Source: Styela clava
Lineage: Eukaryota > Chordata > Ascidiacea > Stolidobranchia > Styelidae
Assembly (NCBI RefSeq): GCF_964204865.1
Contig: NC_135252.1
Location: 4,836,001-4,900,000, forward strand
Direction of reading: 5' to 3'
Length of the DNA stretch: 64,000 nucleotides
The notes beneath the pieces are model-generated. The model saw only the letters and a program-made list of their open reading frames with translations. It made no database searches and was not told where the DNA came from. Both the position numbers and the translations under genes were made by a program. Below, one piece after another: positions 25,240 through 59,652 of the stretch (the first letter of the stretch is position 1; each line of letters begins with the position of its first letter).

Positions 25240-25410
25240 CTATGTTGACTTGCTTGGTAATATAAAGCCTTCGTAATCTTCGTCATCTTCTTTTTGTTGT
25301 CTTACATGCATTATCCGCCGATATTCGGATTTAACAGTTGTCCAGATACATAAGATCATAATGACGACAAATATAACATCATACACGTTTTCAATCGGCT
25401 TCCAAGTCAT
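25240..25410 (-). CDS. Single-pass microprotein, 56 aa (copy 1)
   Basis: Minus-strand ORF beginning MTWKPIENVYDVIF. A hydrophobic segment (residues 11-26, DVIFVVIMILCIWTTV) is followed by a basic stop-transfer stretch (KSEYRRIMHVRQQK) and an acidic end (EDDEDYEGF). This is the layout of a signal-anchor single-pass microprotein with a cytosolic tail. The copy at 30333-30512 is identical for the first 38 residues. A strong donor-like CAT|GTAAGA after residue 35 (His) offers an alternative: splicing to an acceptor near 25158 would give a different open tail (CLCILWQEEEYY...). An overlapping minus-strand frame (25086-25286) is also open. No family is recognised, and coding status is unproven because flanking non-coding sequence is similarly conserved between the two copies. 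Confidence 0.4.
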   Translation of the reverse strand: MTWKPIENVYDVIFVVIMILCIWTTVKSEYRRIMHVRQQKEDDEDYEGFILPSKST

Positions 25411-28400: not shown

Positions 28401-29186
28401 TGTCATGTTGGACACGAAATGCACATATGGATCATTTTTCTAAATTGTTGTTGTTCTTGCTGGACATGAAGTGGATCTATGGATCGTTTTGTTAAGTTGT
28501 TATTGCTGTTAGAATTGTTGTTGTTGTTGTGAAATTTTATTTATTTTAATAGTGGATCAATTGCTTCGAACTTTTCAGTGGTTAAAGATTGTTGTTGTTG
28601 CTAGAATGCTATTACTAGTCCCACTATTACTGTTCTAAATTCCTAAGAGTTCTATGATATCTTATAATTAATTCAGAATTTTGCTGTTTCATTTTTATTT
28701 TGGGAACATTGTTTTATTCAGCCGAACGTGACGGTCTACGTCAAGGTTCCCCCGTTTGATTTTGCGAACGTGGTGCTCCGACACTTTTCAACATAAGTCG
28801 CGTAGGCTACTGGCACTGCGGTCAATAATGAGAACTTCGTATACACATATTTGAGCTTTGTTCTCTTGTTGTTGGGGTGATCGTAGTCTAGCTTTAAAGC
28901 GCAATAAATACACTATTCTACTTCAAACTTTCAGCACTTGCGTTTGGGCGAAATCGAAATGACTTTTAGTAATGAATGAAAATACCTAATATATTCTATC
29001 ACGCTTGCCTGCCGATCTTTTCGGTAAACTCGGTGAACAGTTGCGGTCTTACCGCTATGTGTGATCGCTCGATCTTCGTGTCCTATATTCGTGCATTGTT
29101 CTCTTGTATTTTATTTTCCATACATACGGTACGTATATTCAGCATACAGTGAAAAACTAACAATTTTGAGCGCTTGTTCTTTACTG

Positions 29187-29355
29187 TGTACTAATATGGA
29201 GGTAACTAATTTTAATCGCCTATTTACATCAAGTTGTGTAAAGGGAGTGGAGCCTTATAGGCAGGCGGATATTCACTTGGCTAACACAGGCAGTCCCCGA
29301 ACTCGTAATAGAACTAAAATAGGGAAAATCGGAATAAAATTATGGGCTAACCCTA
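29187..29355 (+). repeat. Interspersed repeat within copy 2
   Basis: Counterpart of 24466-24640, with a diverged reverse-complement relative at 61405-61576. The ORF at 29061-29429 is an artefact of this repeat. Confidence 0.7.
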
Positions 29356-29526
29356 ACCTGGTACACATACTACGGCAGTACCCAACTTTCCAATGTGTCA
29401 TTTTTTCATGTATGTATTCAACCAAATAACTAAATAGTATGCATAAAAATGCACTAGGTGGCGGAGATGAGTCAATAATAAAATACCATGCAACTTGAAA
29501 GATTGCGACTGACCCCTGTTGCAGGA

Positions 29527-29925
29527 CAACAATTTATTAGACACGTAGTGGACATAACGATCGTTTCAATATTATGTTGTTTGACAGAGAATAACACACC
29601 TAGTGGAAATATTAAAAAAACGCTTTTCTCTTCGAATACTGGACCAATTGCTTTGAAATTTTCAGTGGTTGAAGATAAAATTTTTCCCCAGAAGGCTATT
29701 TCTTTTATTCATTTTAAATATTTCTGTTAGCTCTGTGAGATTTGTTTTTGTTTGCTATGACGTCATTAAACGTTCTGCGGACATCGGACGCCATTTTGTG
29801 TCCTACTGTACTGCTTCGCTTGGTGTGCATATATTTGTAGACTGTGATCTGACGGTACCGTACCGTCAAACCGTACTGTACTGCGAACAGACGTGTCCAT
29901 ATATTTGGGCGTAGCTCTCTTGTAA
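29527..29925. repeat. ~400-bp block private to copy 2
   Basis: Copy 1 runs from GCAGGACTAACAACAATTTAT directly into AAATAATATTTTAGTCC, whereas copy 2 has about 400 bp between these points. The block includes another version of the TTTTCAGTGGTTGAAGAT motif and the imperfect palindrome GACGGTACCGTACCGTC (29852-29868). It is either an insertion in copy 2 or a deletion in copy 1; no clear target duplication is visible. Confidence 0.7.
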
Positions 29926-30332
29926 ATAATATTTTAGTCCTCAAATCTGTCATATATGATAACTCTAATACCAGTTCTTTGGGTGATACAATGTAGAACA
30001 TCGCTGTAAAATGACAAAACAAAAGAAGTTGTGCAGACCAAAACACAAGGATAAAACTTTTCATGATTTCTGCTTTCTTTTGCCGTGTGCGGCACTGTCT
30101 ATTTTAACAATATGTCTACTCTTACAAAAGAGTGGACGTGCCGTATAAAACCAATATCGTCAATAGGCTAGAGATGCAAAAATCCTTCTAGAACATTTGT
30201 TAAACAGGCTCGCTGTGCAATATTCTTCCTCTTGCCATAAAACGCAAAAACACTGTGTTGATTTGTATTTTAGTTCGTCGAACAAGTAGATCATTAAGTT
30301 CGAGCGCAGTTTTTTTAATATAAGTTTCAATT

Positions 30333-30512
30333 TCACGATGACTTTGTTGACTTGCTTGGGAATATAAAGCCTTCGTAATCTTCGTCATCTTCTTTTCGTT
30401 GTCTTACATGCATTATCCGCCGATATTCGGATTTAACAGTTGTCCAGATACATAAGATCATAATGACGACAAATATAACATCATACACGTTTTCAATCGG
30501 CTTCCAAGTCAT
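30333..30512 (-). CDS. Single-pass microprotein, 59 aa (copy 2)
   Basis: Counterpart of the ORF at 25240-25410. There are three nucleotide differences in the shared 171 bp: Q39R, L51F and loss of the copy 1 stop (TAG to AAG), which adds three residues (KSS) before the next stop. The same CAT|GTAAGA donor-like site is present. Both copies keep an intact frame with the same membrane segment, but they are too recent to show purifying selection. Confidence 0.38.
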   Translation of the reverse strand: MTWKPIENVYDVIFVVIMILCIWTTVKSEYRRIMHVRQRKEDDEDYEGFIFPSKSTKSS

Positions 30513-31433
30513 AATTATAATTCAAATACCAATATTATATTCGTTATCCAGGGAATGTGTCACATTTATCAGAATTAGCTTTACAAATCTCCACAGTGTT
30601 TATTTTGCAGATAACTAAATATTTGAATCTGAAGATTAGCGTGCTAAAGTCAGTACTAAAGCACACGGAGTGATTTAAAACAGCATATTATCGAGTCTTA
30701 CAGAGGTTAATAGCGACTTTGTATGTATTTAATACAAGTGAAAACATTTATAACCACTCTTTGATGAGCAGAAGATCACATTAACAATTTCTATATATTT
30801 ATATTATAAATCAGAATGTTTGAACCCCAAATTTAGGTGAATTTCTACATACACTGACAACTATCTATCTATGCATGCATATTGTATACAACATTTTCTC
30901 GTAAAGGCTACCTTTAATTACTTTTTTTTCATGACACGATTGATTAATTAGAGATATTTCGGCCGATATGGTTCTGACATCAACAAATACTTTATTATTC
31001 TGTCATTATGTTTTACAGATTTTATCTTTGCGTTATACCTTTTTCGTTTCATTATACAGGCTTTCGACAATTTGCCCTCTAATATTCTTAATTTCTAAAT
31101 AAAACCCGTTCATGAGGTATTGATGCAAAATCAAGTAAACGAGACGGATTGACAAGTTTCATTTCTATTGTTTGCTCTCTTCAACGCTCGAATTCAACTA
31201 ATATATATATATGAGTAAAAACTGACACAAAAACAAGACAAAGCGGATGGTTAGTGGGTAATGGATAGTCAGTCAGTTGATTAGACAACAATGGCTATTT
31301 CCTGCTGCGTTCCAAACATTTCGATAAAAAAAAAAAAAGAGAGTTATGCTTAAATATGTGGACACGGAAGGCAAAAAGAAACATTTCCTCACCAAATCTC
31401 GGAAATTTATATGCGGCAACTTGCCTGTATCGG

Positions 31434-34842: not shown

Positions 34843-37800
34843 ATGTTTAGACATTTAATTCAAGAGAAAAATCTTATTTATAATGCAGAAAATATTCTTT
34901 TATTTAGTGCGTCAAATAAAATTTGGATAAAAAGGATGAATGAAAATTTGTATGAATATGCCCGTGTTATAGTTGTTACTGTTTGTGCGTACACTATTTT
35001 GTGTCTCTTTGTTACACACCAGGATCTGTTCATTCCCTCTAAATCATCAAGGGGGGAGAGCGAGCATGACAGTTTCAGAGCAAGTTTTCTAAATTTTCGA
35101 TACAAAGATATGAAGGACAATCAAAATAATATGAAAGAAGAAAGAGGCAAAATCGATTTCTTTGAGCGTCATGACACCCGAGAAAAATGGGAATCATTAT
35201 TAATAGCTGACAGCGACATCGAGGCCAAAGTTCGATTCCAGAAAGGTAAATTGTTATATTAGCTTACATTATTTAATAAAAAATCTGCCAATCATTGAAA
35301 ATCAAATCTAGGAGGATTATGGTTTGGGAAATAGGACTTTTAGCGAGCTATTTTCCGATATTCATTTCAATGCTGTTCATTCAAATTGTAAGAAAATTCA
35401 AAATAGAAAATCATATATATACATAAGGTTACCTTTATATTCATTAAAAAAACTGTTTGATAGTCTCAAATACTGTGAAAATAACGTTGCAATTCATTCA
35501 AAATCTTGTTTTCGATTTAAGTGGTAACAAAATTGCTTTGTAAATAGATGACAAAAACATGGATTCATTCAACCAGCACATGGATCGCATAAAAAGATCA
35601 AGTTCGCAGGTTAGAGTGTATCTTACTCTCTCTTACGAATGATTAAATTTGCTTCCAGTGGAATTATAAAATTCTAACATGATAAAACTCTATCTAGTCG
35701 TCATCTTTATAAATTTCACATTACTTACTGAACCAGAAGATTGAATATGTATATAAATTGCCTTTCATTGTGTATATTGAGTCTGGTTAGGTTTTGCACT
35801 TCAAAACAGCTATAACTAATGAGTTCTGGCAAAAGCCGCAGAAGTCTATTTTGTGTCTTTATCATGAACAATGTCTCTACAGCCTAATAAAAAATGGTGA
35901 AAAATGCCGAGCATTTTAATAAGGAAATCGATTTTTAGGTGCCACCCGAGGAATTTTCTTTTTCGGAATGGAGCACATGGTCAGATTGTGATTCAATCGA
36001 TTGCAAAGTACCAGGATATCAACAAAAATTGAGAAATTGTTACGGAACAAATCTTGAAGAACGACAGGATCATCCATGCAAATATGGTATTTTATGGAAG
36101 TGTGCTAGGGAAGATTCACTGTCTGATATTTTATAGTGATGAAATAAAATGTTGTAAAACTAAATGTTTATCCGAAAATATTTGTGGCTGTTGAAATAAT
36201 TAGTTCAGCAAGCGAATTATTTCATATATTGCAAAAATCAAAAAAGTCTGTAAAATTTGACAGCACTCGAATTTCCATCATATAGAACAGGGATGGCCAA
36301 CCTGCATCCGACTAAAATCTTCAAAATAGCTCGCGATCGACCGATCGGTAATAAGGTTATACACAGAAACGAATGAGTACTGAATATGCAGATAGCTACA
36401 CACACGCATATAAAAATTCCACCGCCGCCTGTGGGCGCACTCTTTATAAAATTGCCCCAAAAAATTAGTATTTTTTATGTTGCATTTAATTTGTTATTTT
36501 GTGTATGTACATGTTTCATCATTTAATTGAAATTTATTTGAATTATACAATTCAGAACTATGGCCTGCCTAATTTTTAATCGTACGTGTTGAAAATTCGT
36601 ATCCATGTATTATCTAAACAGCGAAAAATAAATATTCTCAAACCGTAAATGTTATATGATTGATTAAACTCCCGTGTCTAATTTGCAATTTCCCACATGT
36701 CCGATTCTTTGCTCGCTTTGAAGTAGAAAAATTGGGCCTTTTGATGTTAAACCTTTGTTACCTTTGCGAATAAATTTTATCACACTACCCTTGGAGTGAC
36801 ATGAAAACTTCGCATACTACATAAGTTATTGTAGAATCGTTTGTCAGTCAAGACACACGATATTCGGCACGTTCGTTTCTAAACCTCGGCAGCGAAGTAA
36901 CTTGCATTTGTTATGTAAGATTATGCTCTATCGACTTGTCCACACTCAAACAGTGTATGTGTATACCATATCATGTTCCGCGCGTGTTCAGTACTGTATT
37001 CTTCCTGTTTTAAAACACACAACAGGCGCTGCATGAAACTGGTTCAAGGTAAATTTTTGGGGTATGTTATTAAGTTCACTCAAAATCAGACGCGATGGAC
37101 TTTTCGAGACGTGGAAATCGACCGGTCGATCGCGATCGACGTGTTGGCCATCCCTGATATAGAATATCATCGCCATATTGTTTTATGGTACATTTCCATT
37201 TTTGTTGTACATTCACAACTTGGCCTCGGGAAATGAGAATCAATATGAGAACTTAATACTCGCAATGAATCAAGCATAATTGTTAAACCGCAGAAAGTAA
37301 TTTTTGACTAATCTGTCTTTTAACTTAATATTATACAATAACAAACTGTCCGAACAATCAAACTTTACACGCGTGTATTTTCCTCAAATATAGATAATTT
37401 GGTGAAGATACGACCTTGTTATCCTATTGAGTGCAAGAACGACACACAAGCAATAATCAGGTTTCGTATTTTTATTTACATTAATTTAACCCCGCAAATA
37501 ACGTCCAAAAACGCATTCAAGTTTGCCTCTACGACTATAATTCATTGTTGCCAAACAGTTGTTAAGATTTATTGGTATCGTAAATGAATTCCGATAGCTT
37601 TAAATTTATTTATCTCAGGCGTGAGAAAGATTTAACGACGGTTATTTTAATAATGATTCGAAAATCTCTTCATCCACAAGCGCATAAGCACCTTTAATGC
37701 CACAGATATATCATTAAGACATTCCAATATTGTAAATTATATTGGTCCGATAACTGCAACAAAATGGAATTAAATGGAGGTGATTTATAGGGTCTTCCTC

Positions 37801-40800
37801 GGTGCAATGTTATGTTGATATCAGAGGCTATGTGGATATGACAGCTTCATCTGAGTCGCGTAAAAATATTGATAATCTTGATTTAATATCTTTAATCCTA
37901 CATATGTCCTATATTATGTAAACTTGGCGTAAAATATTGTGAAGAAGCACCGAGCAATTCTTGTATATAATATCCTGATTTGCCTCTTACAGTTGGTCAC
38001 CATGGACAAAATGGAGTGAATGCAGTATAACTTGTGGTAGAGGTGGATCGCAGACCAGAATACGAAATTGTTTCACTGAAGATAATCATAAAATACCAAT
38101 AGAGTAGGTTCTTAGATTATATTCCACTTTCACCTAATCTTGTGAAATGTAACTATAACGTTTTCTTTAAATAGAAACTGCCCAGGAAAAACCTTGCAGA
38201 AACGTTTATGTCAATATTCAGTAAGTTGTCCTGTATGGGATACGTGGAGTGTGTGGTCAAGCTGTTCTCAAACTTGTGGAGAAGGAGCAATGTATCGTGA
38301 AAGGAGTTGCGTGGCATACTGGTAATTTAATTAAGTAATTAACTGCTAATTAAGTTTGACGCACCAAGGATTTTCTACAACACTGCAGATATAGCGGTAG
38401 CCTTTCGTAAAAATTTTTTTTTGGAAATATCATACTTAGATACCAACAAAAGACCGATACACCTCTTCTCAAGTGTCCGAGAAGGTCCAGTGATTGGTTG
38501 GAATAAATATTGCGCCAGCGGAACGCGCAAGTATTCTCGGCATACTGATAGACTACGATTTTTTTAATTTTCAGCATGACTTAATGTTAACCAATACAAC
38601 GAGTATACTATGATTTAGTAAATACAATATATGATTATATGTAACTATTGTTAGCCGATACAACTGAGAAAAAGATTTGTCAATAACACCCATAACAGTC
38701 AATAAAGAGTACAATTTCAATTTATGTTGGCAAATAACCGTGATAAAAATTAATAAAACAAAATATAGTCAGAATTTAATATATATACTTTAGCTATCTA
38801 AAAAACATATTTTGATTTAGAAAACGAAAAACAAAACTAAATAACCCACCCATTTTTTTTAAGTGATCCGCGAAATTTAATAACCTCTCTTTTTTCATAC
38901 GACCAGAAATTTCGTGATAATTTATAAATACCGAAAAGATATCAGAGTCCCCAGAAAATTTGCAATGATTATTTAATGATAATTTCATAGAAATTCAATT
39001 CTTCTGTGTTTTAGGTATTTTGCTATTGATGCCGACGATGAGAATGCGTCAGGTATGTTAGATTATTCATCGAGTCTAAAACACTGAAATCAATGTTTTA
39101 TTTATGAATAATAATTTTTTTTTTACCTAGAAATCAACAGAGAGAATAATTTGACCGTCAATCCAGAATTCGTTGCAGAGGTAAGATTTTTTTTCTGACC
39201 GTATAAAATGACATACTTCAGATAGACTCGAAAACTACGCAAAAATTTTATAGTTGTTTGAGAACAACACATCATTCATGAAATCTAACATGCTGAAACA
39301 AAATGTTGGAATGACAATTACGCTGGACAAAAATGAAGTGTTTATTGTAGATGCAATCAAGTTATCCAATATGAAAATATTGAATGTTCAAGAAGAGAGC
39401 CAAATAAAAGGTATGTCTGCATATATATCTGTGCTCATAACAGTCAGCAAACATAACGGGTTATATTGAAAACAGTATATTTTACTCTGATAGTCAAATA
39501 ATCTTCACCATAAATCTGGGTACGTCTATTCGGCATTTCCCTATATTTTTCTATTATTTTCGTCATTTGATGTAGTTTTCGAGCCTCGCATATAATACCT
39601 AATCATTGTAACCACCTGCATCAAACTGAACACTCACCTGTACAATTTAGGGTGTTCATTTACTTTTAGTTCATGTTTGTAGCTTATGTTATCGTATAGG
39701 TGATTATGTTTATGTAATTTACTATTACCAGTTAAGTTACCAGCGGAAAAGTGTTCTCATCAAATGGGAACAGTTACCGACAAGATGAATTGTGATGTAA
39801 GAAATCGTTGCCCTTCAAAGTGGGGCGCTTGGAGCAAATGGACTCCTTGTCGCCCAGTCTGCGGTGCTGGCATGAGTAAAAGAGAAAGAAAATGTATTCG
39901 TAATATTGAAAACGGTGAGAAATTTTGATATGTTTAACACCCAAATTTATAATTTTGTGAATGTGTGAAAAGAAACTATCAGCTGGGTGACTAGCGCAAT
40001 ACGTGTATGTACTAGATAAAAATTAATATTTACAAATTGATATAAGTTCACCACGGCAACGTTTTTTTTAATTTGTATCGAAGGCATTTAATTTCTTGTT
40101 CATTGTTTCCTGAAACTTTAAGAGCCCTGTTCCGGGAGACGATTTTTGTACAGACGTTGCTATTCGTCACCGTGCTGGAGTCAGTGGGTAGAAGTCGAGC
40201 CTTGTTCAGCAACATGCGGTGCGGGATTAGTCAAACGGAGAAGGAAGTGCAGTTCAAAAACTACACCACCTTACAGATGTTTTGGACCCGACCAAGATAT
40301 CGAAAAGTGTAAAATAAAGGTATTGAAAATATAGCATGAAAAAAATCAAGTCTAAATCAAAAACATTTAGTCATTTTTTAAAAACATTTAGCCTTGTGAT
40401 GATGATTCATGGACGAACTGGTCTGAATTCAGCGAATGTACTGTATCTTGCAACGGGGGGTTCCAACACAGAAATAGGACTTGTACTCAAGAAAATTGCC
40501 ATGGTTCTTCTAACGACATCAAGCTGTGCAACAGACAGGTGACAGAAATTTGTTATGAAAAGGCCTTTCACACAGGCGATTCAATTCTAAGTACTGATAT
40601 TAAACGTTTTATCATATTATATTATGCTACAGCGATGTCCCACCTGGGGGAAATGGGGACCATACACCTGCTGCAATGTGACGTGTGGTCACGGAACACG
40701 GGAACGACATCGTGACTGCGTAAATGGAAATATTGGAGATTTCGGTCAGTGTTTATCTTATATTAGATATATGGATATATATATATATATATAATATATA

Positions 40801-43800: not shown

Positions 43801-45527
43801 AATCAATCAAAATTGTTTTTTATACCATAAATTACTACTATGATTTCAAGATAAATAGTTGTATTGAACATTCACAAAGTCATAACAAAGACTACATTTC
43901 TATCTTAACCATATTCATTGATTACTGAATGAACTTCCTATATAGTTATGTTAGTTTAAGATACTATTAATTAATTAACGGGGTGCCTTTTGAATTTTTT
44001 TTTATATCGTACCGTGACTGGAGTTAGAATTAGGGAGATGTTCGGAAAGATTTGGATAATAAAAACGCCAGTTTAGAGACGCCAAAATAAATGGTCGTTA
44101 AATTTATAATTTTATACAAATATAAATCATATTTATTTAAAAAAATGTAGATAACTGGAAATTGAGCGATCATGAAAAGTTTGGTGATGATAACGGTGCA
44201 AGTTAATTCAATTAATGTGTTTATGGTTTTAAATACCTATTCGAAAATTCAATACTTATTTTTAGATGACATTGCACTTATAAAACTCCGTAACATGGTT
44301 CCGATCACAGAAATAATTTCACCAATCTGTTTACCTGGAATTAGAAAACCTGAGCCAGGAGAGCAATGTATTGTATCCGGGTGGGGATTAACAGGTATTT
44401 CTATCTCTAACACTTGTATGGAAACGTCTTACATCCTGATTTCTGCATCTTTCTCATCATAAAGGGATTATTCTGACTATACTGTAAGCAGCTTTCCACA
44501 AGTTTGCGATCCGGCCAGTTGCTGCCATATGCACCAATGAATAGTATGATGAATAGAACAGTAAATGTTTCACCAAAAGTGAAAGGAAATTAAAACTGCT
44601 ATATAATTTTGACAAACCACAATTTCAGGGCCAGATGCTCGCCACTCACAAGTTCTCCTGGAAGCAAACGTTCCCGTGGTAAGCTTTGATAAATGCCAGA
44701 CATTGGGAGCTTATTATAGACATTTTCTAACAAGAAATATGCATCTCTGCGCAGGAAATCCTATAGATGTCAAAGGTGATTCGTGTACGGTACGTAAACT
44801 ATTATTTATTCTTTTTTTGCAGATATGTAGAACGGGATATTTTTGATTTCGATCCATGTTGCCTCAATTCAGTTAGCGATATAAAAGATGGACTTGGCAA
44901 TAGATAAGAAAAATATTATGCTAATCTACTACAATATGATTTATTTTTCACCTCTGATAATAATCAAAAATACATTTAATAAAATGGATTGAAGACAAAA
45001 TACTTGCCAAAGTTCCTGAACAACCTAAAAACTGTCGAAGGTTTTATCAAATCCAGGCCGTTACTCTTATTCATTGTACTGTGTGCCATCAAGCGTATCA
45101 AAACACTGCTCATGATTTTGCGCTGGTGATGAATCGTGCAAAAAAATAATAATGATTATGTACCAGAGGAATGCTGCGGGGCTATTTGCTGTTGCATGGT
45201 AGATCATACAGAATGAAATTGATGAAAATTCTCTGCTAATCACGATCAATTTTTCTTCCCTCTGATGAATATAGTATCTTATCTTGATACGAAATTTTGA
45301 CGATAAATTTTATTGCCGATGTAAAGTCAGCCTATTTTATATTGCAGGGTGACTCTGGAGGTCCTCTTTCGTGCAAAAGCGGAGCATCGTGGTATATGGC
45401 AGCTGTTACATCCTTTGGTTTTGCTGAATGTGGAACGCCAGGAAATCTTGGAATTTATACTGAGTTAAATAATTATCAGGACTGGATTCAAAATATTACT
45501 CAGCTTCATACTTTCGATGAATGCTGA
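34843..45527 (+). CDS. Type II membrane serine protease with seven TSP1 repeats
   Basis: Nineteen exons: 34843-35245, 35548-35609, 35939-36086, 37791-37917, 37993-38103, 38175-38321, 39015-39052, 39131-39180, 39254-39410, 39732-39914, 40123-40319, 40392-40538, 40633-40744, 41110-41264, 42024-42163, 42677-42819, 44266-44394, 44629-44789 and 45348-45527; 2790 nt, 929 aa. A signal anchor lies at about residues 42-58; Met32 is an alternative start. TSP1 repeats begin near 165, 248, 305, 442, 497, 548 and 595 (WxxWSxC, CGxG and Arg/Lys pattern). A trypsin-fold domain follows, with activation at R674|IFGG and catalytic His721 (TAGHC), Asp775 (NDIALIK) and Ser873 (GDSGGPL). Asp867 occupies the S1 pocket position (189), predicting cleavage after Arg/Lys. 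The C-terminus ends in an unpaired-looking Cys. TSP1 repeats usually bind glycosaminoglycans or matrix. It is probably a cell-surface or shed trypsin-like enzyme of matrix or immunity. Exon 4 is the least certain join. Confidence 0.93.
36288..37156. mobile_element. hAT-like element in protease intron 3
   Basis: 869 bp with inverted ends CAGGGATGGCCAAC and GTTGGCCATCCCTG, flanked by an exact 8-bp duplication ATATAGAA (36280-36287 and 37157-37164). Subterminal GATCGACCGATCGG and GACCGGTCGATCGCGATCG motifs are mirrored. There is no transposase ORF. A 238-bp deletion relative is at 51521-51758. Confidence 0.93.
40951..41059. mobile_element. 109-bp fold-back MITE in protease intron 13
   Basis: Almost entirely an inverted repeat. 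The left arm contains CTCCTGAAGTATGCGCACCA and AACCTGAAC; the right arm carries their complements (GTTCAGGTT and CATACTTCAGGAG). Each arm is about 43 bp around a short loop. Flanks CATTGCTTG and CATTGCTTT match at 8 of 9 positions, suggesting an 8- or 9-bp target duplication. Confidence 0.88.
41342..41623 (+). mobile_element. hAT-like repeat in protease intron 14
   Basis: Starts CAGGGGTATGCAACC and ends with GGTTGCACACCTACGG. It shares its interior with 14160-14450 (CACGGAGAAGTG, GAAACGAGTTTTTAATT, TAATCTGGTACGTG, ATGTTAAATAA, GGCCCTCTTGTATT). No clear target duplication is visible. Confidence 0.7.
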
Positions 45528-48234: not shown

Positions 48235-50536
48235 AAATGACTTGATAATTGGATGGAATACGGACAATATTCCCTGATTTTCTACAAAATATATTTTATT
48301 TATATACCACGTATCATCGGGTCCACTGTATACTCGCATGTCCTAACAATTTGAATAGTGTCAGTTACTATTGAAAAATATTAATTTTGAAATAATAAAT
48401 TGTATTAATTTCTAGTAAAAGTAAGAAGTCGCGTACTCGCCAACAATATATTCATCATAGTATTTTGCAAAGCCAGAAAACTTGAATTGAAAGACTTTGA
48501 AAGAAGTGCTCAGTAACATTGACATGATTGGAACTTGTTTTATCTACAGGCAGAAATATTTGGGATTAAAACTATTTATAATTAATTTATTTTTATATAA
48601 TTATTTATTTATAAATATTGCATAATATGTTAGCATAAAGTTTTTAATGCGAATCGATTAATGGCGCAAAAGACCACATGAGGTGTCATAAGCGCCATAA
48701 ATCAACAACAATCATTTCTATTTACGAGTGGAGAATATAATATTTTCAAAAGAAAATTATTTCTACCAGGATGGAGCTGGTTATTCGATAGGATTAGGCA
48801 GGACGTTCCTACGCGCGATGCAGTTTGTCGGAAAGGTTGCTTGGCCCGCATTGTAGGGAAATCTCTATTGTGCGTTCGGACTGAGATAAATAGAGGAAAT
48901 AAAAAATCAAAATTTGAAAAAGGCGTGAAAGCATATAATCACATTTAAGAATAACAACATATATATTTGGTAAAAGTGTTATTCACTCGACTGCTATTGT
49001 ATTTCCATCTGATGTGAATTAGCGCTGACCGATAGTGGGTTGGCAAGATATTCTAAACATATCGCAACGGAAAAAGTGACAAGCTGGCCATCGTTTTTAG
49101 TCCTAATGTTAGCTTAGTTGCTCTCAACGCACATGTATTTAATAAACAACTGATAATACTTCTAATTTTAAATAAATGCATGATAAATATCATAGTGAAT
49201 ATATATATATATATTGATTGAATATATATTATGATTTCGGGTTCCGTTGAAGCCTTGGGTTTTTGAAGTATTTCGAGATTGAACTTACCGTCTAATTTAC
49301 TTGTGCGATTAGCGTTTGTATTTCGCATGTATCTAAACTTCCGTATTTAACAAAATGTGAAGCTTTAGCTATAACGTCATAATACATTTTGCAAGGACAT
49401 ATCTGCACAATATGACGTCATATCATATTATTTATGACACCATCGTTAAAGATGTGACTCACAAATGACATAACATAGGGGCCTCTCATCGTCTGAATCC
49501 GGCCCTGTAGGCCAAGTACTCGCTTTAAAGTATGTCCAATCATGATACCGCTGTACGATTTTGGCTTTTCAGCAACTTGTAGTTACACGAACCATTCTAT
49601 GACGTTAAGGAGTCCAGCAATATTCAACACATATCCATATCCCACTTGTACGCCATTTGTATATAATATAAACTGGAGTAGAGGTAGTAGTTTAACAGAC
49701 ATGGGCAAAGTACGGCCCGCGGGCCAAATCCGACCCGTTGGGTAATTCAATCTGGTCCGCCTGATGCTGCCAGAACCAGACTGAAATCAAATTTTGATGT
49801 TTCAGCTAAAATAGCTCAAAGAATTTGTTGAGATTGCGGCTAAATTTAGTTTTGGCACGAGGCTTATTGTTTTCCACCTTTGCTTTGTAACACTGTTAAT
49901 ATTGTTCATAAAATGCCACTTTTTATGTCACATTTACTTGACCCGCCAGTCTAAATGGGCAACATTTTTTGCTCCTGGTTCAAGAACCTTGCCCACCCCT
50001 GTTATACAACATTATATGTGTATGATTACAAAGAAATAATCTTCAGGAATTGTAATTCGAAACAGAACGCGGAGACAACTGCCCACATCCCATCTAATGC
50101 GCTGTGAAGTTTTTAACAGCTGTCAAGTACTCCTGACGTCACGCATAACCCCACCCATTGCCTTATGCACTGAACCACATCGTTACGTGTTCCCATTGTA
50201 GAATAAGTCACTATTGTACTAACGTATATGTAATGTATGCGTATATACAGCTAAAAATATTAATTTATGTACTTATTTAAACAAATTAAATCAGCTAGTT
50301 TTAACACACAAATGGAGAAAATGGCTTCGTAGATAATCCAATACATTGGGAACACTATATTGCTACCAACTTTCATTCGCCGGCACAGATTTTTTCTCAA
50401 GGGAATACTGCTGCCGCTCATAGCTTCGTGCCAGTACGTTGTTGCATTCCTTTTCCGTCGTTTGCGCTGTTCGTTCTCTTCGACTCGTTCGATTTTTCTT
50501 GTTGCTTCGTGGGACTTACTACACAATACACTTAAA
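48235..50536. other. Intergenic, including MLC promoter region
   Basis: No gene recognised. It contains a hAT-like element at 49696-50001 and, at its right end, the untranslated part of myosin light chain exon 1 (the transcription start is not determined). A palindromic TGACGTCA-like site occurs in ATATGACGTCATAT (about 49411-49424). The ORFs on both strands around 50260-50600 overlap the light chain 5' UTR and are considered chance. Confidence 0.5.
49696..50001 (-). mobile_element. hAT-like element, inverted relative of 1844-2130
   Basis: Begins CAGACATGGGCAAAG and ends CTTGCCCACCCCTG. The interior matches the complement of 1844-2130 (GACTGAAATCAAATTTTGAT, TTTAGTTTTGGCAC, ATTGTTTTCCACC, AACACTGTTAATATTGTTCA and GACCCGCCAGTCTA). 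Its target duplication is weak (TAGTTTAA versus TTATACAA). Confidence 0.82.
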
Positions 50537-53500
50537 ATGGTGAGTTTAATAGATATAATTCAGAGGTCTCTAGCTTTACTTAGTCTTGTCGGATTCTGAC
50601 TAAATAAAAGTGTATTATTACTTTGTGTTATTCAGGTAGTTCTCTAATTACTGAATTAGCCTATATGTGTATGAAGCTGTTATAACTGAAACAAGATCGG
50701 TACAGAGCTACACACTACCGGTATATCACTGGTATTTAATACCCGAATGCCCCAGTGTAGCAGGCTGTGACATTTCAACATTATCGTGACTAAACAACTG
50801 AATAATACGCTGATATCAGAATATGGGTTGAAGCTAATTCTGTCCATTCCCAATATGCAGCGACTGATATATGTGTATACAAGTATATGGCAGTTGCAGC
50901 CTATGCCCTCGTACTTCTGGTATTTAAAAGAACATCATCTTAACGATGTGAAATAATCATATGTATCCCATATTGATAATGTAGTCTGAAGGTACCGAGC
51001 AATTTCTCCTAGGTTTTTACTTGTCAGCTTTTATGTGAAAGTAGCTTTCATGCCCGTATCTAATAGTACATGTTAAGTTCAGCTTTTGAATATAGTATCT
51101 GGCAGTCTATTGAAAATCAATAACGCCAGTACCGTATCTAATTCTGAATTTTGAATTTTGAATAATCTAATTCTGAATTTTGAGCCAACCTACATTATGC
51201 AAATTACTGCTCAATTCTCACTGATTACCTGTCACCACCCCATTGTTAGAATTAAATTCTCTGAATGTCCCAATGTCGCTCAATCTGTAAAGTGTGCTGT
51301 ACTGGGTCAGCGAAAGCGATAAAACTATTTGGTTTTCATAGAAGGTAGTGACAACAACCCCATTGTACAATAGGATTTGAATTTCTCCTAGATTATTGTA
51401 GAACAACTTGTAAATGCTTGTTTTAATGACATGAAACAGTTTACTAGATGTAACAAATTCATCAAGACTGGTAGGCCTATCCCTTATCATCTTTATTTAA
51501 CATTTTACAATCATATATAGCAGGGGTGGCCAACACGTCGATCGCCACGTTTTGAGAAGTCGATCGCGTCGCCGCACCCGAGAATTCTGTAAAACACCTC
51601 AAAATATTGCTGGCGAAATTTCTTTTATCCGCGTGCGCAGTTATCTGCATATTCAGTACTCATTCGTTTTTGTGTATGGCCTCATTACCGATCAGTCGAT
51701 CTCGAGCTATTTTGACAATTAAAGTCGATCGCAGTCTCAAGTAGGTCGGCCACCCCTGATATATAGGATAGGATTTACATATTTATCCTGCGGGAGAGGA
51801 AAGGCGATAAGACGACTTAACCATGTGGCGAACCACAGCCTCTCGTCCGGTTACCATTCCATGTCGGGTATGGAATTAGTTAGGTATTTGTTTTTGGAAG
51901 CATGGACCCAAGTCGTTGTGATCAATGTAGCCATGGTTAGTCAAATTTGAATTGAAACCCATAATGAATGTGACTGAGGCTTATATTTAATTTATTTTCA
52001 TTATTTCATTCCCTCCAAATGATTCCATTTTTGTTTGGGGGTTAGACAAAGTATTCTGAAAATATTACTATATCGAAGTATCAAAATATCATGTTGTCTT
52101 TGGTCCTATATAATATTTTACACCCCTCAGTAGGTGTAGGTTTGTGTTAGCAAAAAAATTGGTGGGTGCAATTATATGGTCCATTTATCATGCTCTATGT
52201 AGAATTGAAAGTTTAATGGCTTGCCACATGTAGAAGCTCTTTTCAGCTTTCCCCTGGGATTCAATGTGCAATTCTCTTTGTTAGGCTCAAATTCATAATT
52301 CAACCAGGCAGTTTACTTACCTTTTGTGGAAATGATTTTGATTTGTAAACGATTCTGCTTTTTATTTATGAAATAGCTTGTTATATAATTGATGTATTAT
52401 ATTTTCAGGCTGACTTCAGTGATGACAGAATTCAAGGTACATGACTTATATTTTTAATATCGTTACTTGCTGTATTTACTTTTAGATCTACAGGCAAATA
52501 ATATACCAAATATTTCAGTCAACATGACTTTGTATTTCTTTTCTATTATAAGTTACACTGAATTGATGATTGATTGAATTGATGATTAAATGTTTCTAAT
52601 ATTTCTATAAGGATGTTGTCACGTACATGCTAGTGTATATGCTGAGCCCGAAAAGATAACAACGCCTATTTGATGCCTACATTATCGAATAATCGTTAAT
52701 TTTGAGCACTGGTGTTATGCTTCTGACGTAGCGCGCGTCGACCTCTCCTCAATTTTCCTTCCTTATATGGCATGACGTAATCGCTCATGCGTTGCCTTCT
52801 TTTCCGTGTGTGATCGTATTTTCTTCGGAACAGTTCTGTCATCAATCACCTTTCCTGTGTCGTGTATTTAAACCTATGCCATTATTTGAGTTGGGTTTTC
52901 GTTCAATCTATAATATGAATATATGTATGTAATTTTATGTAAATTGTGTCATAACCCGGATTAAACCATTAATGACCATAACGAAAACGTCCACATTCTG
53001 AATCTATACATAAAACGACCCATCAATATTTTGATAGAACCAAACTGATAACGTTAACGTCCTTCCCATAACTCTGGCATAACTTTCCTATTGCAAATGT
53101 ATATCCTACATTCACAATTCAGATAATTACTGTGCTGTTAGTGGTCATGTACCGACTCTTCCCCGAGGCCGCGTTTATAAGGCAATTAAAATGCGCATGA
53201 TAAATCAACGACGTAAATGTTTTTATTGCATTGTAATTTAACATGATATTTGATTGTACGGTATATAGAAGCATTATATATATCCTCCCAACTTGTAGAA
53301 GTTAAGTTTTATTTCCTCATCTACTTGAGACTTCATTTACTATCTTATTCTTTCTCTTCTTTTTCAATTTCAAAAGAATGCCAAGAGGCTTTCGAATTGT
53401 TCGATAAAGCCGCAAACGGAAAAGTTTTCATTAACCAGGTTGGCGACATCATCAGGTCACTAGGCAGAAATCCCACGAACGCAGATATCTTGAAAGTCCT

Positions 53501-56500
53501 CGGCAATCCAAAGAAAGAGGGTGATTTCTGAGTGACTGCTTGCTCGTTAAACATCACCAACACTTTGCTTCCGTTCACTTCATTCTTTCACTTCAAATGC
53601 TTTTGAATTTTCTAGTTGCTCTCAATTCTTATCCAAACTGGAACGCTTCTGATGCAGAAAAGTTTACTTCATCCCGAGAATTCTCTTTTTTTTCGATGAA
53701 GTATTTTCCATTTATCGCGAGGAGAACAAACGCAAATATGACTGTTTTAATATTAGTGAAGTTATAATTCCGAGATACTCCTATAATATTGATAATAGAA
53801 ATGTTCTAAATACCTGCACAATATTATTAATTGATATATATTTTTTGCTTGCCTCCTTCGTACATATTTATTCACGCACATTCACTTCTCATTTGTTCAA
53901 TAAAACATTCCACAAACACAACACATTTCGCCTTGCTTGGCATTTCCCATGAAATTGAAGATTGTCAAGAGACTTTCGCCATGATGGACACGACCGGTAA
54001 TAACAAGATCGCGATGAACATGGTCGGTACACTCTTTAGAGCTCTCGGACAAAATCCGACGGAAGCTGAAGTCTCAAAAGTTTTGAATAATCCCACTACA
54101 GATGGTAATGTTGTATTTTTTGAAACCAATTTTTAATTTTTTTTGTTTTCAACCGAGATATAAAAAACATACCCGGTTCAACTACGTTGTGTGTGGCATG
54201 CCTGTTAGATAGCGCTACCATTATTAATCGTTGAAATATTAGATCTGGACTATTTTTTGAACAAAGAATTTTCACGCTAGACAGTGCTTGCAGCATGCTA
54301 TATTGTCAATCCAACTTCAAATGTCATTACGATCTCATTATTAGTCACATTTAAAATCGAATCTAGTGAGAAATAGAACACCATAGTAAAATGTTAAAAT
54401 AACTTTGTAGATCTCGCAACGAAAGATGTGAGCTTCAGCGAATTCTTGCCAATGCTTGCACAAATCGAACGACAGACAGAACGGGGATCATATGAAGATT
54501 TCGTTGAAGGCCTTCGTGTTTTTGACAAAGAGAACAACGGCACTGTCATGGGAGCAGAACTTAGGCATGTCTTATCGACACTCGGTAAGTTCACGCAAAT
54601 ATATACATTTACAGTATTAACATTTATATAATTACGTATTTTCCTTTTTAGTTTCTCGATTGTCACAGTGATGATAATTTCTTTTTGTTCCATTCGCTGA
54701 TGCCGTTTCGTTCGCTTAAAGTTTTTTTTATCCTTTTTCAAGGTGAGAAAATGTCAGAGGAAGAAGTTGAAAGCCTTTTACAGGGACAAGAAGATGCCAA
54801 TGGTTGCATCAATTATGAAGGTAAATCAATTTTTTGGCTTCTAACAAAAGCGCTGCAAGATACATGTATTTAATTTTACACGGCCTATATATAACATTCT
54901 TAGACACCTTATTCGTGAATATTTATTCTTTTTTGAAGGAGTGACTATTTTGGAAGATCCTGTTTAGATAATTTATGAAACCCGCAAAATCTTTTCTAGT
55001 ATCCTGAAATAAATTTGCTGTTGGGCTACATCATGTTTAAACTATTTTTCTATATTATTTAGCATTCATAAAAGCTGTCATGGAAGGATAAAGTATCAAT
55101 TTTAAATGTATATAGACAATAGTCCTAGAAAATGGTGCACACATATGTCGTTGTAGTTTAGTGCAAAATGTCTCAACTCCCATACTAACGGACTTTACTT
55201 CATCTTATCTGATTCACTAAACTACACTAAACACCCACGCGCTGCTCGTTTCTTCAATATTTTATTATTATCTTCTACAATACGGTAAATTGATGAACAA
55301 AACAGACGATTGTGCCTTACTATCGTATTTTTGGTACGTTTGGAAACTGTGTGTTAAAAATTGTGATCAAAATCATCCTATAAACACTCTTTCCTTTTCC
55401 TCTTTTTTCCTATTCTGCAATATGTTTTCTCAGCGTTCTGCAAGTATGTTCTGGAAGGATAGGAATCATATTTTTTCTCTTTTTTCTCCGTTTCAAAAAA
55501 TTCTTTCTTCGGTAAGTCTTTTCGCCTATTTCATTCAGTCTTTTCGATTGTTGTGGTTCAATCATTTATAAATTCAAACTCACAAAACGCATTTGTCTCA
55601 TAACTTAGAGGTTTTCAATAAATATCACTATCAACACCACTAACAAACTAATCGACTAACTATGTGTAGATTTCGTGAAAACGGTGTGCAGTGGCTGACA
55701 GTTTGTTCGCCGAAGATAAAGGAGATATTTGGACGTCATTTTTGTATAAAATGTGAGACGCATAGGAGTTAGGAGCATATATAATTTGGAACAATTTAGT
55801 TTCTCAATATCTCGGATAATTTTTATTTTTCATGATTTATCAATTATTATGTTTCGTTGATGTAAACTTGATTCAGTGTAGTAGTCTTGTCATTTTTGAT
55901 CAAGTCGCACTGTCTCAGTGTCAACAAAATAAGAATGATTTAATCAAGTTTTTGATCAAGTCGCACTGTCTCAGTGTCAACAAAATAAGAATGATTTAAT
56001 CAAGTGAAACCAAATTTTGCATGGGGCATGTTTTCCACACAAGTTCAGGTTTTCCAAAGTCAAATCTATCACTGTCAAAATTTATGACAGTCAATTTTTT
56101 TAATCATTGGTAATATAAATGTTTGAAAATCTGGATATTTTTCCTGCAGCAGTTTTTTGCTATCAAAACCGATCGAACATGGCTAGGGCTAATATATAAT
56201 CTCGTAATCAATGTAATTCTAACATTCATGATTATAATGTAACATGCATGTGGTATTTTTAATCATACTAACTGTAATTTAATTATTTATTAGTCCTAAA
56301 TTTCCGTTTGTGACATGTCGTGATTTAACTAATCGGAAATTGGTAATGTATCCGGGCAAATCCGTCATATGGCGATTTCGAATATCGATTAATTCGAGTC
56401 AATTTAGTGTTTTGTTTGTAATGTAATTTAGAATTTAACAATTTTTTGCACGTTCCTATAATCAGAAAGTGCGTTATCTGTCGCATCGAGTCACATTAAT

Positions 56501-56935
56501 TGTGAGCAGTGTCCTGCTGTATTTGTAAAGCTGAAAAAGGCTTGAATGGTGGCCTAAGGCCAGGATAGGTCGTTCCCCAAGCGATCTATCTGTCATTGGT
56601 TCATGCGTTCAATTAATTGCCTTAATAGCTTGCATTTATCAATTCCCCGGCAAAGAGCTTTGATTTGATAACTGGGAAAATATTATCTGTCTGTCAATGC
56701 TTGACAAGTTTTCAATTAATCCCATAATGTTGAATAGCGTACTTGAAATTTCTGCTTACAGATAGGCTCTGATTATGAGTGTTTGCAGAACGCTATCTCA
56801 GTAAAATAAAGGCGAAGGCTTTGTTTCTTGTCTACTTACAACAAGTTTTTGTGTAAATGGCATACATTTTTAATTCGTCGTGGCTTATATTTTCTATTTT
56901 CTTCAGCATTCGTTAAGCAAATTTTAAACGGTTAA
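50537..56935 (+). CDS. Essential myosin light chain (MYL6-type), alternatively spliced
   Basis: Constitutive exons: 50537-50539 (the ATG alone, directly before GTGAGT), 52409-52436, 54411-54584 and 54743-54820. An alternative third exon is 53377-53520 or 53961-54104. Alternative last exons are 55063-55091, 55670-55698 and 56907-56935. Every isoform is 456 nt, 151 aa, the same length as vertebrate MYL6. The protein starts [10 protein letters not shown], with EF-hand 1 on the alternative exon, then [28 protein letters not shown] (EF-hand 3) and [10 protein letters not shown] before the variable tail. The first-exon and second-exon structure (ATG alone, then about nine codons) matches vertebrate MYL6. 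The product binds the first IQ motif of the myosin heavy chain neck, in muscle or non-muscle myosin II. The EF loops lack several Ca2+ ligands, as usual for essential light chains. Confidence 0.96.
51521..51758. mobile_element. hAT-like MITE in MLC intron 1
   Basis: 238 bp with ends CAGGGGTGGCCAAC and GTCGGCCACCCCTG, flanked by an exact 8-bp duplication ATATATAG (51513-51520 and 51759-51766). It carries the same GTCGATCGC-type subterminal motifs as the 869-bp element at 36288-37156. Confidence 0.92.
53377..53520 (+). CDS. MLC alternative exon 3a (EF-hand 1)
   Basis: 144 nt, phase 1 in and out. Preceded by a strong pyrimidine tract (TTATTCTTTCTCTTCTTTTTC) and acceptor CAAAAG; donor GTGATT. 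It encodes [20 protein letters not shown], then [28 protein letters not shown]. It is closest to the vertebrate MYL6 pattern (ALGQNPTNAEVLKVLGNP). Reading through the donor meets a stop within three codons, so it must be spliced out of the longer ORF. Confidence 0.93.
53961..54104 (+). CDS. MLC alternative exon 3b (EF-hand 1)
   Basis: 144 nt, phase 1 in and out, like 3a. It encodes [20 protein letters not shown], then [28 protein letters not shown]. It is identical to 3a at about 22 of 48 residues. The loop glycine at EF position 6 is Asn here. The acceptor (AAATTGAAG) has a weaker pyrimidine tract than 3a; the donor is GTAATG. Equal length, phase and homology indicate an old exon duplication used alternatively. 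Confidence 0.9.
55063..55091 (+). CDS. MLC alternative last exon 6a
   Basis: 29 nt after the acceptor TATTATTTAG, phase 1. It completes the tail AFIKAVMEG and stops with TAA. The first downstream AATAAA is at 55617, before exon 6b. Confidence 0.88.
55617..55622 (+). promoter_or_regulatory. Poly(A) signal for MLC exon 6a transcripts
   Basis: AATAAA between exons 6a and 6b, 526 nt after the 6a stop. Confidence 0.5.
55670..55698 (+). CDS. MLC alternative last exon 6b
   Basis: 29 nt after the acceptor TATGTGTAG, with a good branch-point-like CTAAC just upstream. It completes the tail DFVKTVCSG and stops with TGA. A later AATAAA lies at 56805, before exon 6c. Confidence 0.88.
55893..56004. repeat. 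56-bp tandem duplication downstream of MLC exon 6b
   Basis: Two adjacent units of TTTTTGATCAAGTCGCACTG... starting at 55893 and 55949, identical by eye. They lie in the 3' UTR of an exon 6b transcript or in the intron before 6c. Confidence 0.9.
56805..56810 (+). promoter_or_regulatory. Poly(A) signal for MLC exon 6b transcripts
   Basis: AATAAA between exons 6b and 6c, about 1.1 kb after the 6b stop. The distance makes it less certain than the other two. Confidence 0.4.
56907..56935 (+). CDS. MLC alternative last exon 6c
   Basis: 29 nt after the strong acceptor TATTTTCTTCAG. It completes the tail AFVKQILNG and stops with TAA. This tail most resembles vertebrate MYL6 tails (AFVRHILSG in the non-muscle form). 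It lies about 2.1 kb after exon 5, so it needs skipping of 6a and 6b. Confidence 0.9.
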
Positions 56936-57210
56936 CCAATCAACAACCTGGACGGATTTTAAATTTGAATATACTTGGAGCACCACCCCTTATGACGAAT
57001 GGCCGCTTGCTATGGACGTTCTTGAGGACTTCAGCTTTACCCTTTTTGTTTGTGTCATATACACGAGATTTTACTCCGTGTCTTCAGCATTTTGCATTTG
57101 GTTTATTTATACGAAGTTGTAGTTTACCACTTTAATGAAAAAACTTTCTGCCTGCTCGGTTAATATAGCATTTAAGTTTGTGTGTTCAGAATCTTTTTGA
57201 GCACGACATA

Positions 57211-57216
57211 AATAAA
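57211..57216 (+). promoter_or_regulatory. Poly(A) signal for MLC exon 6c transcripts
   Basis: AATAAA 276 nt after the 6c stop; probable distal end of the gene. Confidence 0.55.
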
Positions 57217-58000
57217 ATAGCACTTTCGCCTATGGTATTTGTGTCTGTTCTATATCTCCTATTATCAATGATTGTAGTAATGATTGTATAATACAAATTT
57301 TATCGATTGGACGAATGTTTCTTTATGTATCACCACACTATCGGGCCACGTAAGACTCGTTCGCCATTCCTAATAAGGACCCGCGGCTGTTATCGTATGT
57401 CGTAATGTTGTGGTATTTTAGGAAAGGAATTCCCGAAAGGGTTCGGCGTGCCTGCATCGTGTATATTGTGCAGATATGAGCGCTGAGTCCAATGCAAGAG
57501 CGACGTGACTTGCTTTTGGTTTGTCGAGCAATTGCCTTTAATTTGCGTTTTGGTCTGGTTACGGCTCGACTATACTGCGTTTATAATCATTCCCTTCATA
57601 GGATCACTAACCCTGGACGTCTGCAACAGTTCACATAAACGTATGCAGCAAGTAATAATTTATTGTCGCAAGCCCAAGGATAATTTTGCCATAGTTATTA
57701 GGGGACTGAAAGTAAATTTTCAATTATTTTTCGGAGCCAGCGTATGTGATCGGTTGGCTGACTTTAGACTTAGCGGCCCTAAAACAACTCGCTGGTAGTA
57801 CTTCGTTAATGACAGAAGTTCATGAAAAAAATATCGAAAATTTTTCTTTAACAATATGTAAATAGCCAGGATCTGACGGTTTCCAGAGATTGGTGATCGA
57901 AAACTTCAATGGTAGGTAAGTAAATAGGGTCATTTTCATCAAATCTGCAGAATAACCCGACACGGTATTAATACTGTGGAATCGGCAAATAGAAGACATC

Positions 58001-58203
58001 GGTTCCATTACATTTGAACCCACGTACATTTGAACCCATGACAATTGCACCTGTATGCTATTGCACCAAGGAAATTTTTTTTGTTTCACGGATAGTTAAA
58101 CCCATACTAACCCTAACCCATGGGTTTTAGCACCCGCATATAGATTGAACCCGTGGATATACGCATGGGTTCAAATGTACATGGGTTCAAATGTACGGTC
58201 ACC
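58001..58203 (-). mobile_element. Mutator-like MITE, copy 2
   Basis: 203 bp, bounded by GGTTCC and GGTCACC, nearly the exact reverse complement of 2683-2885. It is flanked by a perfect 9-bp target duplication, GAAGACATC (57992-58000 and 58204-58212). The arms contain tandem TACATTTGAACCCA motifs and the centre has AACCCTAACCC. The 9-bp duplication points to the Mutator superfamily. Confidence 0.93.
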
Positions 58204-59652
58204 GAAGACATCAGGTCCGTGGCATAGTCCTGGCGCGGTCAGCGTCTAATATTCTGCGTTGTTTAAAGTCTTTAAACCTTTCGTTTTAAGCATTTTGTGT
58301 CCCATGCGCGACTGTTACGGATTTAATATGCTTGGTCCTGGTACAAATCATATATCGTTCTTATCGTGTGTACGTTCTTGGGCACGGCTTTGGTCTCCTC
58401 GGGTGCATGTGGTCTCCGGGTTTAGGTGTGATGGGTACAATCTTCTATACTCCTGGTAGCAAGTCAAGTGATATTCCCGCAGATTTCAAACTGAGTCCTA
58501 GCCATTGTAGTTGGCATCGTGTGAAGTTGTTGTCATCCAGGGCCACAAATCCACAATATTTTTTTTGTATTGTTTGAGTGCCCCATAAGCACCTAAAATA
58601 GTTGAACAGCATAAGCTAAAGCAAAAACTTTTATTGTACACACACATTTGATCGCTATTCATATTTGATCAAGCTTTATATATACACATTTACGTTAGTC
58701 GTTGACAGTCGCGAACAGACATTCAGGGAACTGTTGTTGGGTGGGCCGAGCCATTCGTTGATTCCATCAAATTCCTTCAACTTTGGGAACTGCTCTTTGC
58801 TCATCACTAGATTTACCAGTAGGCCGAATCCCAGAAGCCTCCATATTCAATTATGATATATTATTAATTTTTAGCTCTTTCAAATTTTAAAGGCTCATTT
58901 GGGAATGAAACCGGCTTGGGCAAACTTGATATTTGTTTAATTTTTGTAAATTTGAAAAACTCTACCACTTCAAACATATAAAAAATATTATTACTTCTGT
59001 GCGAGCTGCTTGGGTGAATAGAGTACGCCTCTTGTCTTGACGCAATTTTTTGAAATGTTTATGACGCCGCAACGCATTTTACAAATGCCTATTTATGACG
59101 TCGCTGTTAAAGAGGAGCCTTACAAACTTTTTTTCTTTAGACGACCGCTTCACGTTTTTGTAAAAAGTCTACGGCCGCCAGCGGGATCAAAAACTATATT
59201 TATCAACTATAGAATTGGTATTTATTGATATATTTTATTTTAATGAATACGAGATTCGTATGAATACGAGATTCGTATTTGCATTTAAATTCGACCCTGA
59301 CTGTGACCAATGAGCATAGTGACTAACGCTTGCTTTCCACAAACAAGAAATTTTCCTTTCATATCAAGTTGAAAAATGTGTTTGAATTGGTCAATTTGGT
59401 ATTGTACGCAATTTTTTTTAAAACGTTTACCGCATTTTACATGTGTCTATTTATGTCGTCATGTGTGATAAAATGCCATATGACGTTTTCGTCAAAAAGA
59501 GGTCTTATAAATACTATAGCTTAGCCTAAGAGAGTCTTATTTGTTCATCATTTGTTAATTTATTCACATATAGCTTATACTTTATCAATACGCGGATTCA
59601 GCACGAAGAAACTTTTTTCAGAAGTAGTAGAAAGTCTGCTGAATGTTTGAAA

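Follow-up and report, generated by a model that had tools for sequence, protein, structure and literature searches.

One essential light chain gene of the tunicate Styela clava carries four candidate tail exons and a doubled exon 3 and may yield up to eight proteins

Introduction

How many C-termini can a single tunicate gene supply to the essential light chain (ELC) of myosin, and how would the choice among them be made? The question arises from a 64-kb stretch of the genome of Styela clava (assembly GCF_964204865.1, contig NC_135252.1, C3:4836001-4900000), called the window below, in which one ELC gene is encoded on the + strand; positions given without a contig refer to this stretch. The tail of an ELC forms the terminal part of the final helix in the fourth EF-hand, within the C-lobe, which holds the neck of the heavy chain. 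Four 29-nt tail exons in phase 1 lie 3' of exon 5 of the Styela gene, where an initial annotation had listed three. Judging from the sequence, it is highly probable that this one tunicate gene yields up to eight proteins, two forms of exon 3 being combined with four tails that all share the one donor of exon 5.

The initial annotation had compared the gene with vertebrate MYL6, and the parallel is apt, as both are ELC genes whose alternative C-terminal exons occupy the site at which the last nine residues of MYL6 are exchanged (PMC4819215). Exon 6 of MYL6 comprises 44 bp, its inclusion or skipping alters nine amino acids, and it is included in the smooth-muscle form (PMC4819215), the two forms differing in five of the nine terminal residues (PMC5742693). 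Inclusion is cell-type-specific and greater in smooth muscle cells (PMC8563012), and its regulation is treated in PMC8960663. The LC17 forms track phasic or tonic muscle, yet motility assays show no difference between them (PMC5742693, PMC4819215). Among the titles and abstract openings listed in searches of open-licence PMC papers, none reports multiple ELC tails in a tunicate, which is no proof of absence.

Results and Discussion

Four tail exons follow the donor of exon 5

The window was scanned for the pattern AG, 29 nt, in-frame stop, and the candidates were scored against five vertebrate ELC tails. The four tails (6a to 6d) head the 111 candidates of the + strand with scores that, in descending order, are 31, 31, 28, and 24, the next candidate reaching 19, and the best of 127 candidates on the - strand scores 15. 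Within 54821-57300 the scan finds seven candidates, and the three that are not tails score at most 1. Residues F2, K4, V/I6, and G9 are constant across the four tails, positions 1, 3, 5, 7, and 8 differ, and with every tail the protein is 151 residues long. The acceptors 55063, 55670, and 56907 that had been proposed at the outset, each followed by exactly 29 nt in the same phase, were recovered by the scan and by open reading; the count of three alternative tails, however, has to be raised to four, because 6b (55434-55462) had been overlooked.

One might suspect chance matches to a short degenerate pattern, given that nine residues are few and that isolated scores of 19 occur in the strict scan and of 19 to 24 in a looser scan of seven residues. 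However, the four matches lie within 2.1 kb behind the right exon, whereas 1000 dinucleotide shuffles of 54821-57300 produced a single score of 24 or more in total. Chance is thus an exceedingly improbable explanation, with the margin being least for 6c (24). Equally negligible is the probability that the extra tails come from separate or nested genes, an objection that the initial annotation had raised against itself: exons 2, 4, and 5 have one tblastn match each in the 64 kb and no part of the gene was found in the 10 kb beyond the window, which rules out that the extra copies are separate genes.

By identity, 6d is nearest to the non-muscle tail of MYL6 (6/9), with MYL4 being equal in BLOSUM score. 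The smooth-muscle tail of MYL6, ELVRMVL(N/S)G, scores 13 to 24 against the individual window tails, as compared with 24 to 31 for the best vertebrate match of each; for 6c and 6d its score exceeds that of the MYL1 tail, and among the five vertebrate tails it is the best match of no window tail. Copy-by-copy orthology with the MYL6 tails is not seen, nine residues being too few to decide it.

Several candidates for further tails were rejected. The peptide EVVESLLNV at 59622 contains no core residue at all, and its score of 17 is equaled or exceeded in 16 of 1000 shuffles of a 2.5-kb stretch; EFTKHDKTS at 11475 (score 19) lacks two core residues. Two hits of the looser scan, one at 56738 and AFCIWFIYTKL at 57088, have a score of 19 each, which 71 of 300 shuffles of a 6-kb stretch from a paralog also attain. 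The looser scan also gives an isolated score of 24 at 51392, upstream of the tails. A perfect two-copy tandem repeat of 56 bp occupies 55893-56005, 3' of tail exon 6c.

Gene structure and encodable proteins

Exons 3a and 3b (Table 1) are neighboring homologous exons of equal length and phase. Over 48 residues, three ELC sequences of the PDB share 26, 28, and 26 identities with 3a, and 24, 24, and 25 with 3b. Two exons 3 and four tails make eight encodable proteins, not the six isoforms first proposed, each of 151 residues and with an open reading throughout. The donor of exon 1 has the highest score of six donors scored across exons 1 to 5.

Table 1. Features of the ELC gene in the window
Feature	Position	Strand	Remarks
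Exon 1, coding part (ATG only; 5' untranslated region upstream)	50537..50539	+	Donor ATG/GTGAGT, score 10.3
Exon 2, 28 nt, ADFSDDRIQ	52409..52436	+	Sole tblastn match in window
Exon 3a, 144 nt, first EF-hand, slightly more canonical copy	53377..53520	+	Donor AGG/GTGATT
Exon 3b, 144 nt, alternative to exon 3a	53961..54104	+	22/48 aa and 83/144 nt identical with 3a
Exon 4, 174 nt	54411..54584	+	Sole tblastn match in window
Exon 5, 78 nt, ends ...NGCINYE + G	54743..54820	+	Donor AAG/GTAAAT common to the four tails; sole tblastn match in window
Tail exon 6a, 29 nt, AFIKAVMEG + TAA	55063..55091	+	Scan, shuffles, open reading
Tail exon 6b, 29 nt, AFCKYVLEG + TAG	55434..55462	+	New; strong acceptor ...ttttctcag
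Candidate 3' untranslated part of 78-nt cassette exon 6b, pyrimidine-rich	55463..55511	+	Donor use presumed
Three ACTAAY motifs, branch-point- or STAR-protein-like	55639..55660	+	Just 5' of 6c; presumed function
Tail exon 6c, 29 nt, DFVKTVCSG + TGA	55670..55698	+	Weak pyrimidine tract; scan, shuffles, open reading
AATAAA, candidate poly(A) signal for 6c transcripts	56805..56810	+	U/GU-rich stretch next
Tail exon 6d, 29 nt, AFVKQILNG + TAA	56907..56935	+	Best acceptor of nine scored
AATAAA, candidate poly(A) signal for 6d and spliced 6b transcripts	57211..57216	+	GU-rich stretch next

Intron 1 contains an element of 238 bp (51521-51758) with inverted CAGGGGTGGCC termini and an 8-bp repeat, ATATATAG, flanking it on both sides, as in a hAT-type miniature inverted-repeat transposable element; part of it (51617-51734) is 84% identical to 36302-36418. 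Upstream of the gene, an E-box CAGCTG at 50117 and a cAMP response element (CRE), TGACGTCA, at 50134 are 17 bp apart and about 400 bp 5' of the ATG, the whole window having three CREs like TGACGTCA and five CAGCTG E-boxes. A scan of 49900-50540 for GGTGTGA, MEF2-like and CArG-like sites, TGACGCAA, and CACGTG found none of them. Tunicate muscle promoters are enriched in CRE-like sites (PMC6589888).

Splice sites, 3' ends, and a probable cassette exon

Splice sites were scored with a rough matrix of base frequencies. The share of AGs that score as high is 0.6% for 6d, 3.3% for 6b, 7.7% for 6a, and 46% for 6c, and amounts to 40% for 3b and 55% for exon 4; the tail acceptors are within or above the range of the other acceptors of this gene. 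A donor TCG/GTAAGT, with its GT at 55512, scores 9.27, which places it in the top 0.6% of 3580 GTs and makes it the best in 54815-57400. Since this donor sits 49 nt past the stop of 6b, 6b is probably a 78-nt, MYL6-like cassette exon that is spliced on to 6c or 6d, and the earlier description of all tails as last exons does not seem to hold for it. The 49 nt behind the stop are 73.5% pyrimidine, a value equaled or exceeded by 0.43% of the 49-nt stretches of the + strand. A stop codon less than about 50-55 nt before a junction as a rule escapes nonsense-mediated decay, and with its stop 49 nt before the junction the 6b cassette should escape it as well. A weaker donor (55753, score 6.44) lies 54 nt past the stop of 6c, and the closest donor scoring at least 5 behind 6a is 193 nt off. 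The 44-bp exon 6 of MYL6 would fit a 29-nt tail plus 15 nt, by our arithmetic on its length.

Alternatively, the tails could be true alternative last exons that are chosen through alternative polyadenylation, each having its own poly(A) site and none being a cassette; this alternative touches the mechanism alone. The motif AATAAA is present at 55617, 56805, and 57211, and TATAAA, followed by a U-rich stretch, at 55379. However, the AATAAA at 55617 is followed not by a U/GU-rich stretch but by an A/C-rich one, which runs into the ACTAAY cluster before 6c, and no donor of the region outscores the one behind 6b. We regard alternative polyadenylation as a possible though doubtful mechanism for the whole set; it may fit 6a, 6c, and 6d and is less likely for 6b. 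The earlier statement that an AATAAA follows each tail is correct for the three tails then named and fails for four, as there is none between 6a and 6b.

The three ACTAAY motifs before 6c are the sole triple cluster within 25 nt among the 45 (+) and 52 (-) ACTAAY of the window. In 54821-57300 there are six ACTAAY, four ACTAAC, and six CTAAC, as compared with 1.7, 0.7, and 2.3 at window density, and the other eight of eleven motif patterns are within about threefold of expectation; the ACTAAY excess among eleven patterns is only a lead. The skipped exon of Drosophila Mlc1 reportedly alters the C-terminus. This alternative exon is skipped more in a mutant of PTB (hephaestus) and has a putative C/U-rich PTB site that is conserved in 12 Drosophila species (PMC4778870). 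Mlc1 is thus, like the window gene, an ELC gene with an alternative exon, and a pyrimidine-rich stretch is found behind 6b too; in contrast to the four tails of the window gene, Mlc1 has one skipped exon. Because the PTB mutant skips a Mlc1 exon with a putative C/U-rich site, a PTB-like protein might be considered as a regulator here, and so might STAR proteins; by analogy, both are leads, no more.

In the arrangement that we favor, four acceptors would compete for the one donor of exon 5, and all four tails would be spliced in RNA. Exon 6b, using donor 55512, would be a cassette exon comparable to exon 6 of MYL6, and 6d would be the last exon by default; 6a and 6c would rely on poly(A) sites of their own, with 6c also able to serve as a cassette. 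Tissue-specific splicing factors would set the choice of the tail, and the tails might tune the lever arm or its contact with the heavy chain; their likeliest function seems to be to tune the neck or the pairing of heavy chains.

Age and retention of the copies

In pairwise comparisons the tail exons are alike at 10 to 19 of 29 nt, the closest pair being 6a and 6b (19/29 nt, 6/9 aa), and three different stop codons are found at one position (TAA, TAG, TGA, and TAA for 6a to 6d). Comparisons of their 150-nt flanks are no better than shuffles in 12 of 12 cases (26 to 98 of 100 score as high), and a recent tandem duplication of a larger segment was rejected, the flanks being without similarity. 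Since the flanks have fully diverged, yet acceptor, length, phase, stop, and the core F2-K4-(V/I)6-G9 are kept, the tails, as seen in one genome, are best explained as old copies whose exonic part has been retained by selection. Unlike flanks could also result if the bare exon alone had been copied. The same explanation serves best for exons 3a and 3b, whose flanks likewise resemble each other no more than shuffled sequence does (90 and 85 of 200 shuffles score as high).

It is conceivable that the gene uses just one or two tails and that the rest are decaying relics of an old exon duplication. The weak acceptor tract of 6c and the lack of AATAAA after 6a before 6b would suit such relics, and six intron-bearing paralogs described below manage with one clear tail each. 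Against this, all four tails keep acceptor, length, phase, stop, and core despite diverged flanks and three stop codons, a near-consensus donor lies behind 6b, and dead copies of such age would be expected to decay. We therefore judge relics to be improbable.

Some observations do weigh against eight products in use. The pyrimidine tract of 6c is weak, although exon 4, which has no alternative, is preceded by a weaker one. The interval between 6a and 6b offers as a poly(A) signal the variant TATAAA only. Inclusion or omission of both 3a and 3b would keep the frame, so the choice between them is not enforced by it. Finally, an exon of nine residues has low power to show selection.

Relationship to other ELCs

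In a search of PDB sequences, of which the best 60 of 360 matches were considered, the best match is an ELC (E 3.9e-58), and calmodulins start at 3e-32. Among the matches listed, the first 21 distinct PDB sequences bear ELC names (skeletal, cardiac, MYL6, and MYL6B) and are vertebrate chains; both MYL6 tails are present in PDB sequences. The Pfam families EF-hand_7, EF-hand_6, and EF-hand_1 score over their cut-offs, EF-hand_9 and EF-hand_8 under theirs. Single queries of a prokaryote-genome collection and of a viral collection found no ELC kin.

Over the 84 residues of exons 4 and 5, two skeletal-type chains share 59 and 58 identities with the window gene, MYL6-type chains 55 and 54, and five paralogs of equal length 45 to 49, five shorter paralogs having been left out of this count. 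In a tree without cardiac MYL3 and MYL4, every paralog is farther from the window gene, by path length, than four vertebrate sequences. Ten paralogs group together, apart from the vertebrate chains, with a support of 89/97 that was not starred, and the window gene is on a long branch within no starred group. It is the most vertebrate-like ELC found in the genome and at most a candidate ortholog of MYL6 alone.

A search of the same genome (376.6 Mb, 379 contigs) gave 33 matches from 54 candidates and, counted by exon 4, at least 11 ELC-like loci: the window, C3:12.98M, C3:16.25M, two on C13, two on C8, and four on C19. This number is a lower bound, as ten further places with 25 to 42% identity and E of at least 6.7e-15 were left uninspected; C1:0.35M, C2:29.5M, and C5:18.4M were rejected as calmodulin-like on inspection. 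The intron before the tail is old, as six of six intron-bearing paralogs keep it in the same phase. Each of these six has one clear tail (AFSKFLLSEGEPEKK, VFSKFLLSEGEPEKK, GFSKFLMEVPASAI, GFSKFLIEVPASAI, VFCKFLLEEPKAAI, and DFSKFLLEKKI) with a score of 25 to 28, the runners-up reaching 16 to 24 in up to 6 kb scanned behind exon 5, and each has one clear match to exon 3. A second tail, AYYKHIVD, 3.4 kb behind exon 5 at C8:6.685M, scores 24 as compared with 25 for the real tail; with 11 of 300 shuffles as good and six loci tried, it was treated as a probable chance match. The donor of exon 4 is GC in the copy at C13:2.923M and GT in the other five, and the former copy may be decaying.

The four C19 genes form a cluster at C19:13303001-13313166, three on the - and one on the + strand. 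They are intronless at the tail, which is fused to exon 5, and their exons 2 to 4 are fused as well, suggesting that intron loss preceded the spread of the cluster. In two of the four that were scanned for extra tails, the best scores are 15 and 19.

Among the ELC genes examined, the window gene is the only one in which more than one tail and two copies of exon 3 were found. The earlier suggestion that tail switching is ancestral finds no support in these data, as six intron-bearing paralogs have one clear tail each, multiplicity occurs in one of the 11 ELC genes found, and no tail matches the smooth-muscle tail best. The accompanying suggestion that the tail set was expanded here is supported within this genome.

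Comparison with other muscle genes

Like vertebrate MYL6 (ELC17, or LC17a and LC17b), the window gene encodes 151 residues, the last nine of which are exchanged after ...NGCINYE by means of a short exon with its own stop; unlike MYL6 with its two tails, it has four, and its exon 3 is doubled. In metazoan muscle Mhc genes, clusters of mutually exclusive exons likewise provide muscle-protein diversity from exon copies within one gene, although these genes encode the heavy chain and Ciona is listed as using sets of Mhc genes instead. Troponin I of Ciona, a different protein, is another product of a tunicate muscle gene with alternative splicing, cardiac and non-cardiac isoforms arising from a single gene (PMC6589888).

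A broader proposal, which we consider rather unlikely to hold in all its parts, is that ELC diversity arises here in two ways, from at least ten gene copies, none having more than one clear tail where examined, and from one conserved, vertebrate-like gene with eight internal variants, its four-way tail and two-way N-lobe switch including a MYL6-like cassette 6b under pyrimidine-tract control and a tail 6c gated by the triple ACUAAY. If the four tails do serve different tissues, the myosin neck would have a tunable element in the last turn of the ELC, and MYL6 with its two states would be a remnant, or a parallel, of a wider scheme. Four natural tails in one animal with at least 11 ELC genes would offer a comparison series for the role of the nine residues, which is disputed in MYL6, and a test of when the tail switch arose in chordates.

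Other features of the window and the genome

Elsewhere in the genome, contig C9 has a match to cellulose synthase (E 2.2e-4) and one to GH6 (E 1.5e-6), both on one strand and separated by 2.0 kb; in 14 control genomes GH6 was found in none and the synthase family in three, all of them bacteria. Among animals, such a pair is characteristic of tunicates. The window contains no tRNAs and no RNA families at gathering score. Exons on its + strand at 3278-3895, 18316-18594, 40392-40712, and 44166-45524 match, respectively, a rolling-stone-like protein, a possible seven-transmembrane receptor (under the cut-off), a TSP1 domain, and a trypsin-like protease. A tandem duplication of about 5 kb lies in 21107-31205, its copies extending over approximately 21158-26107 and 26113-31205 with further internal repeats, and the longest three of its matching pieces have an identity of about 95%. 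An element of about 206 bp occurs at 57998-58203 and, in opposite orientation, at 2683-2888 with 97% identity; inverted arms of 49 bp at 57992-58040 and 58164-58212 are 84% complementary.

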